From positions 225,877 to 289,876 of the forward strand of contig NVWU01000005.1 of NCBI GenBank assembly GCA_002733765.1: a stretch of DNA of 64,000 nt, written 5' to 3'. The translations under genes and the position numbers were made by a program. The notes beneath the pieces are model-generated. The model saw only the letters and a program-made list of their open reading frames with translations. It did not search any database and was not told the origin of the DNA. Source of the DNA: Colwellia sp. (GTDB taxonomy: Bacteria; Pseudomonadota; Gammaproteobacteria; Enterobacterales; Alteromonadaceae). The first letter of the stretch is position 1; every line of letters starts with the position of its first letter. This document shows, piece by piece, positions 13,088-16,493 of this stretch.

Positions 13088-14164
13088 ATGGGACATAAAT
13101 TTGCGGAAATAGCGTTCACAACAGCAGTTAAAAAAGTGCAAAGTGAACAAAAAAGTAGAGCTGGTTATGCACGTTGGGAAAATAGCCTTGATGTTAATCA
13201 CCTACTTAGCGAGCAAGAAGTTGACTTTATTGCCACTAGAGATAGCTTTTACATGGCTAGTGTCAGTGAAACCAATTGGCCTTATGTTCAGCATAGGGGA
13301 GGGCCTGTTGGTTTTTTAAAGGTTATTGATGAAAAGACAATTGGTTTTGCCGATTATTCTGGTAATCGCCAATATATCAGTACAGGCAATTTTAGCAATA
13401 ACGATCGTGTTTCGCTCTTTCTTATGGATTATCCGAGTAAATCTCGCCTTAAAATTTTGGGTAGAATCAGTATTGTTAATGGCGATAATACACAAGAATT
13501 AGCACTATTAAAAAGTACAAATTCTAGCGCGCCTATTGAGCGAGGCTTTATTATTCATATTGAAGGGTTTGACTGGAATTGTCCTAAATATATCACGCCA
13601 AGATATACTGAAACGCAAATAAAAAACTTTATTGAGCCTATTCAGCAAGAAAATGCACAGTTAAAAACTGTATTAGCGCAGCAAGCGCCAAGTGAAAGAG
13701 AAATTAAAAAGCCATTACCTCCTTTTACCCGTGAAACAGCGGAACAAAAAATTCGCATGGCAGAAGATGGCTGGAACGGAAAAAACCCTGAAAAAATTGC
13801 ACTCGCTTATTCTCAAGAGAGTATTTGGCGCAATCGAAATGAATTTGTCACAGGGCGGGCACAAATCATTGAACTGCTTACCCGTAAATGGCAAAAAGAG
13901 TGTAATTACCGCTTAATTAAAGAGCTTTGGGCTTATAACGATAATCGTATTGCCGTACGTTTTGCTTACGAGTATCAAGATTTAGATGAACAATGGTTTA
14001 GAGCTTATGGCAATGAAAACTGGCAATTTAACGAGCAAGGGTTAATGACTCATCGCCATGCCAGCATTAATGATTTAAAAATATCAGCAAGTGAACGTAA
14101 ATTTCATTGGCCGCTAGGTGTTAGGCCTTTAGAGCATGCTGGTTTGACTGATTTAGGTTTGTAA
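13088..14164 (+). CDS. Fusion of a PNPOx-like flavin-binding domain and a DUF1348 (SnoaL-like) domain
   Basis: 358 residues. Residues 1-190 form a pyridoxamine 5'-phosphate oxidase-like split barrel ('[31 protein letters not shown]', '[10 protein letters not shown]'). Residues about 207-358 match DUF1348, an NTF2/SnoaL-like fold ('[23 protein letters not shown]', '[12 protein letters not shown]'). The halves are usually separate proteins. A Shine-Dalgarno AAGGA lies 8 bases before the ATG. No enzymatic activity can be assigned; a flavin-dependent redox role is inferred from the first domain. Probably controlled by the divergent TetR protein. Confidence 0.85.
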
Positions 14165-14288
14165 TAATTTTATACATAAGTTTGGCTAAATAAAAAAATA
14201 ATAATTTTTTTGAAATTTTTTTATTGTTGAAACACTCTTTTATCATGAAGCTTACAACTTATACCAATTGACTTATCAAGGAATTATT

Positions 14289-14576
14289 ATGAATACTAAA
14301 ATAATAGCAACAACAGCAATTTCTAGCATCTTAGCGTTAAGTGTTTTAACGGCAACTAGTGCAAATGCAGTACCTAACCAACCTACCGCTTGGGAAAAAT
14401 GTGCAGGTATTGCTAAAGCAGGTAAAAATGATTGTGGTTCATTAAATGGTAGCCATAGCTGTGCAGGGCAATCAACTATGGATAATGATGATAATGAATG
14501 GGTTTATGCAGCGAAAGGAACCTGTGAAAAAATTACTGGTGGCGTAGTTAAAGCAGAAAAACCAGCTAAAAAATAG
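14289..14576 (+). CDS. bufA: Bufferin-type RiPP precursor (DUF2282, BufA1-like)
   Basis: 95-residue secreted precursor. A signal peptide ends at about ANA/VP (residue 27), and the mature part has four Cys at 38, 49, 58 and 79 in the DUF2282 pattern '[14 protein letters not shown]', 'HSCAGQST', 'GTCEKITGG'. The family is established as bufferins: RiPPs whose Cys residues are modified by the DUF692 enzyme so that they bind copper in the periplasm. Start at ATG 14289 has AAGGAA 6 bases upstream; an upstream ATG at 14268 lacks a site. A DUF692 gene and a DUF2063 gene follow. No DoxX-type fourth gene is present. Confidence 0.92.
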
Positions 14577-14601
14577 TTTATCGCTGTTTCTTGGTGAATA
14601 G

Positions 14602-14637
14602 GTAGCAAGGTGTAACATTTACGATACAGCTTGCTAC
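14602..14637 (+). promoter_or_regulatory. Hairpin between bufA and bufB, possible partial attenuator
   Basis: Perfect 8-bp arms GTAGCAAG and CTTGCTAC enclose a 20-base loop, 25 bases after the bufA stop. It lacks a T run. Such a hairpin could stabilise the bufA message or partly terminate it, giving more precursor than enzyme. The structure is seen; the role is inferred. Confidence 0.45.
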
Positions 14638-14671
14638 ATTTATCTCATTAATGACAAAGCGTAATTATAAC

Positions 14672-14750
14672 CGTCATCTTCGAGGTGTTTTAATCGGAGA
14701 ACTCGTCACTTTAGACTAAGACGCCCGCTTAAGTAGCCACGGGAATGACG
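14672..14750. repeat. Degenerate inverted repeat with CGTCAT ends
   Basis: The stretch begins CGTCATCTTCGAGG and ends CCACGGGAATGACG. The ends are complementary over CGTCAT and partly beyond. Such ends with CGTCATTCCCG cores are common in small non-autonomous intergenic elements of proteobacteria. It sits in the 220-base gap between bufA and bufB and may be a decayed insertion. Confidence 0.4.
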
Positions 14751-14796
14751 TTCCTGCACTATATACATAGGCATATAAAATTTAATTTCAGGTGTA

Positions 14797-15657
14797 ATGA
14801 CAATGCAAAAAATTAAAGGTGTTGGTTTAGGGTTGCGGCATCGACACTTTCAGGAGTTTATCGAAGATAAACCTGATGTTCCCTGGCTAGAAGTACACAC
14901 GGAAAATTTTTTCAGTCAGCACAGTACCTCATCAAAATACTTAGCCAAAATTAGCCAAAATTATCCAATTTCTGCTCACTGCGTTGGCTTATCTATAGGC
15001 TCTGCAGCGGTAGCATGTCCAGTGCGAGAGCAGCATTTACAACACATTAAAAAAACCGTTGATTGGCTGCAGCCGTCAATGATTTCTGATCACCTTTCAT
15101 GGAGTGCTTCTGATGGCGTTCATTATTTACCTGATTTATTACCCATCCTTTATACAGAAGAAGCCTTTAATATTGTCTCAAAAAATATCAACCGCGTACA
15201 AGACGTATTACAAAGACAAATACTAATTGAAAACCCGTCTAGTTATTTACGCTTTAATGACTCAACCATACTCGAGTGGGACTTTTTAGCTGAGCTAAGT
15301 AAAGTAACCGGCTGTGGTCTGTTACTTGATGTTAATAATATTTATGTCAGTGCTTTTAACCACGGTTTTGACGCCTTAACCTACCTTGAATGCTTACCAG
15401 TAGCGGCGGTTAAAGAAATGCACTTGGCGGGCTATAGTATTGATATTATTGAAAATAAAGAAGTCTATATTGATACTCATGGTCAAAAAGTTTATGACGG
15501 CGTGTGGCAGTTATATGAAAAAGCCATACAACGCTTTGGTGAAGTACCGACATTAATTGAGTGGGATACTGATGTACCTGAACTATCGGTATTGTTGGCT
15601 GAAAAATATAAAGCAGAAGCTATTATTGCCAAAGTACTAAATAAGCAGGTTGCCTAA
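14797..15657 (+). CDS. bufB: DUF692/MNIO bufferin-modifying iron oxygenase
   Basis: 286 residues of the multinuclear non-heme iron oxidative enzyme family (DUF692, related to MbnB), TIM-barrel fold. Metal-ligand blocks are present in order: 'VPWLEVHTENFF', 'ISAHCVGLSIGS', 'ISDHLSWS', 'LIENPSSYL', 'LLLDVNNIYVSA', 'EMHLAGYS', 'DTHGQ', 'LIEWDTDVPE'. Such enzymes oxidatively rearrange precursor cysteines. The start is ATG 14797 or ATG 14803, sharing a weak AGG. The stop overlaps the next start by one base (TAATG), showing translational coupling with bufC. Confidence 0.93.
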   Translation: MTMQKIKGVGLGLRHRHFQEFIEDKPDVPWLEVHTENFFSQHSTSSKYLAKISQNYPISAHCVGLSIGSAAVACPVREQHLQHIKKTVDWLQPSMISDHLSWSASDGVHYLPDLLPILYTEEAFNIVSKNINRVQDVLQRQILIENPSSYLRFNDSTILEWDFLAELSKVTGCGLLLDVNNIYVSAFNHGFDALTYLECLPVAAVKEMHLAGYSIDIIENKEVYIDTHGQKVYDGVWQLYEKAIQRFGEVPTLIEWDTDVPELSVLLAEKYKAEAIIAKVLNKQVA

Positions 15658-16493
15658 TGATCAAATCTACTCAGCCTACTAACCCGCTTAGCCAAGTCAC
15701 CACGTTAGCTGAGCTGCAACGTAACTTTATCAGTGATTGCTTATCTGGCAAGCTTAAACAAGATAATATTTTATTGGCAAAAGATATTGATAGCAGTGTT
15801 ATCTCAGCACAAGGTTTGATGGGCATATATCAAAACAGTGCCATTGCTAATATTACTCAGTCACTAATACTCACTTATCCTGTGATCGAAAAACTGGTTG
15901 GTGAAGAATTTTTTAGCGCAATGTGTCGACAGTTTATTTATACAGCCTGGCCTAAAAGCGGCAATATGGATGACTATGGGCTAGAGTTTGCTGATTTTTT
16001 AGCCGAATTTGAACATGTCAAACACCTTATTTATCTTAAAGATGTTGCTCGTTTAGAGTGGGCATTTCATCAGAGTTCATTAGCAGATGATGCGTCTATT
16101 ACTGATTGGTCAACACTGGCACAAGCGAGTGATGTTTTACAGTTAACGTTTTTAGTTACCCCCTCATTATCACTGGTTAGCTCTACTTTTCCTATAGATC
16201 AAATTTGGCATTTAAATCAAGATAATACTTCACCTGATATGGAAGTAGAATTTGCTGATGAACAGGATAGTGATACTTTTATCGTTTTGTTTCGCCAGCA
16301 ATTAAAAACAGTAGTATTACCCATTACTGCAGGTGAATTCGCATTATTACAAGCATTTGAGCACAGAGAAACGTTTGAAAAGGCCATTATTGTTGCATCA
16401 CAAAAACAAACCAATTTCTCCGTTGATGAGAGCCTCAAAAAATTTATTGAACTGGGTATTATTAGTGGCTTTGTAGAAAATATTGATACTTAA
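15657..16493 (+). CDS. bufC: DUF2063-family partner of the bufferin enzyme
   Basis: 278 residues with the N-terminal DUF2063 (HvfC/BufC) domain over about residues 15-110: 'LAELQRNFISDCLSGK', 'LMGIYQNSAIANITQSLILTYPVIEKLVGEEFF'. By family knowledge, these proteins pair with the DUF692 enzyme and help present or recognise the precursor leader. The C-terminal half is less conserved. It overlaps bufB by one base and is the last gene of the operon; no terminator hairpin is obvious after it. Confidence 0.9.
   Translation: MIKSTQPTNPLSQVTTLAELQRNFISDCLSGKLKQDNILLAKDIDSSVISAQGLMGIYQNSAIANITQSLILTYPVIEKLVGEEFFSAMCRQFIYTAWPKSGNMDDYGLEFADFLAEFEHVKHLIYLKDVARLEWAFHQSSLADDASITDWSTLAQASDVLQLTFLVTPSLSLVSSTFPIDQIWHLNQDNTSPDMEVEFADEQDSDTFIVLFRQQLKTVVLPITAGEFALLQAFEHRETFEKAIIVASQKQTNFSVDESLKKFIELGIISGFVENIDT

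Follow-up and report, generated by a model that had tools for sequence, protein, structure and literature searches.

The window, a 64,000-nucleotide stretch of Colwellia DNA, carries a three-gene operon on its plus strand. The first gene, bufA (14289..14576, ATG at 14289), encodes a DUF2282 precursor of 95 amino acids with a signal-like N-terminus and cysteines at positions 38, 49, 58, and 79. It is followed by bufB (14797..15657), which encodes an MNIO bufferin maturase of 286 amino acids, and by bufC (15657..16493), which encodes a DUF2063 partner protein of 278 amino acids with an RRE-like part; the ATG of bufC and the stop codon of bufB have one base in common (15657). The initial annotation had placed these three genes at the same positions and had read them as a bufferin-type layout in an Alteromonadales-like genome, in which a DUF2282 precursor with four conserved cysteines precedes a DUF692/MNIO enzyme and a coupled DUF2063 protein, and each part of that description was borne out. 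BufA matched the Pfam DUF2282 profile (E = 1.6e-24; 86.1 bits, cut-off 22.4), and its four cysteines were invariant in 22/22 aligned sequences. By eye, its N-terminus has a basic start, a hydrophobic stretch, and an ANA-like cleavage site; the predicted BufA structure was of low confidence (mean pLDDT 67.8) and was left out of the analysis. BufC matched PF09836 (E = 7.4e-18). A search of the PDB with the BufC sequence returned zero matches, and the best solved matches of its predicted structure (mean pLDDT 83.9) were 3DEE, a DUF2063 protein from Neisseria (E = 5.7e-05), and the TglHI complex (E = 2.3e-04).

BufB matched Pfam PF05114 (E = 1.1e-101) and scored 359.8 bits on the NCBIfam model NF050167 (MNIO_BufB, "MNIO family bufferin maturase"), above the curated cut-off of 310, while the HvfB, ApyH, MbnB, and ChrH models matched it at scores that did not reach their cut-offs. 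When BufB was aligned with 3BWW, an MNIO of known structure, the conserved blocks that make up the metal site (EN, DHLS, EN, LDVNN, H-AG, and DTHG) were intact. The five nearest BufB relatives were 80-93% identical, and every one of them lies in a Colwellia-labelled record. Judged from its sequence, the window operon is an ordinary, well-formed Buf1 bufferin operon with the standard gene set.

According to PMC12452194, members of the bufferin family carry thiooxazoles on the central cysteines, have the outer two joined by a disulphide, and sequester copper in the periplasm. By analogy, the window BufA would be made with a Sec signal, and BufB, as a multi-iron oxidative enzyme, would probably act together with its RRE-type partner BufC to convert Cys 49 and Cys 58 into 5-thiooxazoles in the cytoplasm. 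The modified peptide would then be exported, form a disulphide between Cys 38 and Cys 79, and sequester copper in the periplasm. The chemistry, export, and copper binding proposed for this BufA, and with them the copper role of the operon, are carried over from the family. We consider it improbable that the metal concerned is not copper, or that the operon introduces a different modification. Such a reading would fit the several modifications installed by MNIO enzymes and the identity of the "gig" (gold-induced) operons with bufferin clusters, both described in PMC12452194, and a search of this genome for the NrsF anti-sigma protein, which gave zero matches. Against it stand the score of BufB above the curated bufferin-maturase cut-off and the suggestion, in PMC13097082, that DUF2063-partnered MNIOs are broadly involved in 5-thiooxazole formation.

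Two kinds of bufferin operon recur in the genus, for which we coined the names type A and type B. Type A, to which the window operon belongs, consists of bufA-bufB-bufC alone. Type B has the order YHS-Trx-bufA-bufB-bufC-DoxX beside a divergent AraC gene, as seen in genomes G135, G158, G157, G149, and G162. The initial annotation had proposed that the spacing of the central cysteines may change which of them are modified, and had singled out the Lys-rich end of the precursor. Neither point was supported. In the family survey (147 genomes taken from a larger group), a spacing of eight residues (x8) was found in 27/27 distinct motifs, which came from 28 of 29 loci, and the one locus outside the motif pattern (L116), read separately, also had x8. 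The genus loci gave x8 in 20/20 distinct motifs (24/27 loci yielded a motif); the three outside the pattern (L161, L162, and L171, from G170 and G164) have x7 (CKAGAGTSC), and together they make up a third lineage of bufferins within the genus. The stretches L196/L206 (G170) and L198 (G164) show this x7 lineage, and G170 has a second, near-identical precursor copy about 7 kb off. In a set of 80 named BufB-anchored loci, 79 yielded a motif, and the 83 distinct motifs divided into 55 with x7, 15 with x8, and 13 with x6; L027, outside the pattern and read separately, has x6. As x8 is the usual spacing among the family and genus motifs, C-x8-C was rejected as an unusual feature. The tail KPAKK is identical in 14/14 type A loci, the window counted. 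The small derived feature of the lineage is the residue after the first cysteine, which is Ala in the window and its type A relatives where Tyr or Phe is usual; Ala occurs there in 5/83 of the named, 3/27 of the family, and 9/20 of the genus distinct motifs.

The 220-nt gap between bufA and bufB holds a hairpin and a repeat-like element. The hairpin lies directly 3' of bufA (14602..14637, plus strand) and has 13-nt arms that are 92% complementary. The fold of positions 14577-14660 had a z-score of -4.08 against shuffled sequences, and 0/200 shuffles were equally stable. Across 14 type A loci, the first 75 nt 3' of bufA had raw fold energies from -8.0 to -30.7 kcal/mol, and their sequences differ. 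The hairpin is possibly a transcript-stabilising or partial stop element, and it may raise the output of the precursor over that of the enzymes. The repeat-like element (14672..14778, plus strand) has matches of 71-83% identity on three other contigs of the same genome (C15, C18, and C20), and a similar stretch was seen by eye in the bufA-bufB gap of L016 (G167). At G000:C15:44236-44683, a 93-nt unit related to this element is repeated in tandem (4.8 copies).

Upstream of bufA, we noted a candidate promoter element, TGAAAT...TCTT (14211..14239, plus strand), of which TGAAA is invariant in 14 aligned type A loci. As raw counts, the full pattern was found upstream of 4/4 type A loci (of the 14 aligned) versus 0/11 type B operons, one of the latter (G162) having been cut at a wrong start. 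The element might be an alternative-sigma promoter. Since the pattern was not found upstream of type B operons, the window operon and the second precursor locus of this genome (contig C32, below) may not be expressed together, a point against the shared-maturase reading given below. Further upstream in the window, positions 13088-14164 encode a PNPOx-like domain fused to DUF1348; G167 instead encodes these domains in distinct frames roughly 0.5 kb from each other.

The source genome (G000) is a draft of 41 contigs, estimated to be 98.9% complete. Profile searches found 1 MNIO, 1 DUF2063, and 2 DUF2282 matches in it, so that BufB and BufC of the window are the sole matches of their kinds. The second DUF2282 precursor, which shares 51% identity with the window precursor over 90 alignment columns, lies on another contig (C32) in the arrangement YHS-thioredoxin-bufA-DoxX. 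Its upstream neighbours are a thioredoxin-like gene, a gene encoding a YHS-like domain (28.4 bits, slightly below the cut-off of 30.3), and then a divergent AraC-type gene; the DoxX gene, one of two in the genome, starts 184 nt past this second bufA. The initial annotation had described an operon of only three genes with no DoxX-like member. This holds for the window locus, which contains no DoxX, and not for the genome, where DoxX adjoins the second precursor; loss of DoxX from the genome was thereby ruled out. The absent DoxX is a matter of a gene set split over two loci, not of a reduced system. A contig break was also ruled out as the cause of the missing bufB-bufC pair on C32, because the 184-nt spacer is internal to a contig of 272 kb. 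The C32 locus would then be a type B operon whose own bufB-bufC was apparently deleted, with the other genes retained beside the AraC-type gene.

Comparison with relatives placed this arrangement in the genus. Both operon kinds were complete in five of the genomes examined (G149, G156, G157, G158, and G178), and a further stretch of one of these (L184 5910-7281; G178:C187) encodes an MNIO and a Cys-rich precursor that matches DUF2282 weakly (27.3 bits). The source genome and its closest relative seen, G167 (Colwellia sp. DT_18; L016/L180), each have a complete type A operon plus a type B operon without bufB-bufC, and the draft genome of G167 likewise has 1 MNIO and 1 DUF2063 match. With type B BufB and BufC as queries, no remnant of bufB-bufC was found at E <= 1e-4 between bufA and DoxX on C32 or in G167, and no AraC match was found within the 19-kb stretch around the G167 locus. 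The bufA-doxX spacers of the two genomes can be aligned along most of the length of the shorter spacer and have blocks such as GGATGGCAC in common, so the loss of bufB-bufC probably predates their split and is probably common to both, as the spacer sequences indicate.

A tree of 61 BufB rows was built from the window, 18 of the 80 named loci, and further stretches from relatives, after exclusion of L129, which has a stop in the matched stretch, and of one duplicate (62 to 61). The 15 type A rows and the 18 type B rows fell into two clades of their own, each with support of 100/100; type A stood apart from a grouping of type B with four betaproteobacteria-labelled BufBs (99/96). On the bufferin-maturase model (cut-off 310), the G135 type B BufB narrowly missed the threshold with 303.5 bits, and that of G137 scored 283.7 bits (matched part only), also below it. 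The window BufB shares only about 39% identity with the G135 enzyme and belongs to the other clade, so it may not accept the C32 precursor.

That distance bears on what becomes of the orphan precursor. One reading is that it is now unmodified and, if it works at all, serves as a four-Cys periplasmic metal or redox protein with DoxX and thioredoxin, the window operon being a bufferin operon as before; we regard this as unlikely, although it is the strongest of the competing readings. The cognate maturase is gone and the remaining BufB sits in the other clade, as this reading would have it, and the survey in PMC12452194 leaves "not modified" possible for unlinked precursors. On the other side, the four cysteines and their surrounding motifs are unchanged, and pairwise estimates, which carry wide error, point to constraint. 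Over 93 codons the orphan precursors of G000 and G167 differ by 15 synonymous and 6 non-synonymous changes (Nei-Gojobori dN 0.028, dS 0.28, dN/dS 0.10), and the ratio falls within the range of 0.015-0.22 obtained for paired type B precursors from five further genomes of the genus (10 pairs). For the same two genomes, dN/dS was 0.06 for the window precursor, 0.09 for BufB, 0.23 for BufC, and 0.17 for DoxX. The orphan precursor is under apparent purifying selection.

The same values weigh on a further reading, by which the C32 precursor is a decaying leftover and its conservation in two genomes reflects the short time since the enzymes were lost. The YHS and thioredoxin genes beside the orphan precursor are truncated in G167, as decay would produce. 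However, precursor and DoxX are intact there, the precursor frame is intact in both genomes, and dS is 0.28 against a dN of 0.028. G030 offers a separate second case of a type B operon without bufB-bufC: this single-contig genome has 2 DUF2282, 1 MNIO, and 1 DUF2063 match, its remaining BufB is itself type B, and its bufBC-less locus (L110; L130) likewise keeps a full-length precursor frame. We consider decay very improbable.

Linkage of precursor and enzyme was the rule across the survey. In the family set, DUF2282 was found in 47/147 genomes and MNIO in 108/147, and 49 of the 56 DUF2282 matches had an MNIO gene at most 275 nt downstream on the same strand; in G137, the MNIO lies about 3.5 kb from DUF2282 on the opposite strand. 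Six had no close MNIO: G000:C32, G019:C6 (16 kb), G030:C1 (1.5 Mb), G029:C40, G073:C25, and G080:C358. Within the genus (39 genomes), 28/31 DUF2282 matches were MNIO-linked, and the 20 genomes with DUF2282 were the identical 20 with MNIO, so that no genus member has the precursor without an MNIO, which argues against an unmodified C32 product. G080 points the other way, as its DUF2282 match, at a contig end, stands in a genome without any MNIO match. G029 and G073 carry lone type A-like precursors (L132 2493-2828 and L133 242-532) and three MNIOs each, two scoring above the bufferin-maturase threshold and the third above that of HvfB; the type A clade contains none of these MNIOs. The G029, G073, and G080 cases indicate that lone precursors occur also without a matching enzyme in view.

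Together, these results are best explained by a Buf1 operon in the window whose BufB-BufC, the sole pair found in the genome, most likely also modifies the C32 precursor from a distance, a reading to which we assign a probability of roughly 0.7. Gene counts argue for this maturation in trans. We hold with slightly less assurance, while still favouring it, the fuller statement that two precursors from different lineages, encoded at unlinked loci, are matured by a single BufB-BufC pair, one operon having lost its own pair while keeping its precursor and DoxX. DUF2282 substrates show little conservation around their cysteines, and the matching enzyme site is likewise little conserved, according to PMC13097082; this is compatible with a broad substrate range and does not demonstrate one. 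Sizeable proportions of bufferin precursors are unlinked to MNIO genes according to PMC12452194, which leaves open both that their modification comes from enzymes encoded at a different locus and that they stay unmodified. In the present genome, the question comes down to a single enzyme pair with two substrates. If our reading is true, bufferin operons are modular and maturases are shared across BufB clades. Beyond an ordinary operon, the locus is of value because its gene set is split and only one maturase pair was found. With that pair, two intact precursors, and relatives that still have both pairs, the sharing of maturases and their substrate range can be tested simply. Among the literature matches listed, a set that mostly did not cover subscription papers, none concerned a Colwellia bufferin operon or a shared bufferin maturase.

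The closest known system is Buf1 (BufA1-BufB1-BufC1, including the gig operons), with which the window operon shares the precursor family, the four cysteines, the signal-like N-terminus, the MNIO equivalog, the DUF2063/RRE-like partner, and the gene order. It differs in having no DoxX at the locus, a 220-nt bufA-bufB gap, and Ala after the first cysteine; the four-gene layout with DoxX, which is common and non-defining, is not found in the window operon. The type B operons of Colwellia relatives have the same kind of precursor, and a version minus bufB-bufC stands on C32 of this genome, whereas their BufB belongs to a separate clade and genes for YHS, thioredoxin, DoxX, and AraC come in addition. 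A further related group, the captophorins (HvfABC; fontiphorin and oxazolin are examples), also combines an MNIO with a DUF2063 partner, and the 5-thiooxazole class has been proposed to take in bufferins (PMC13097082). In contrast to the window precursor, captophorin precursors have EGKCG repeats, and the window BufB reached 226 bits on the HvfB model, for which the cut-off is 360.
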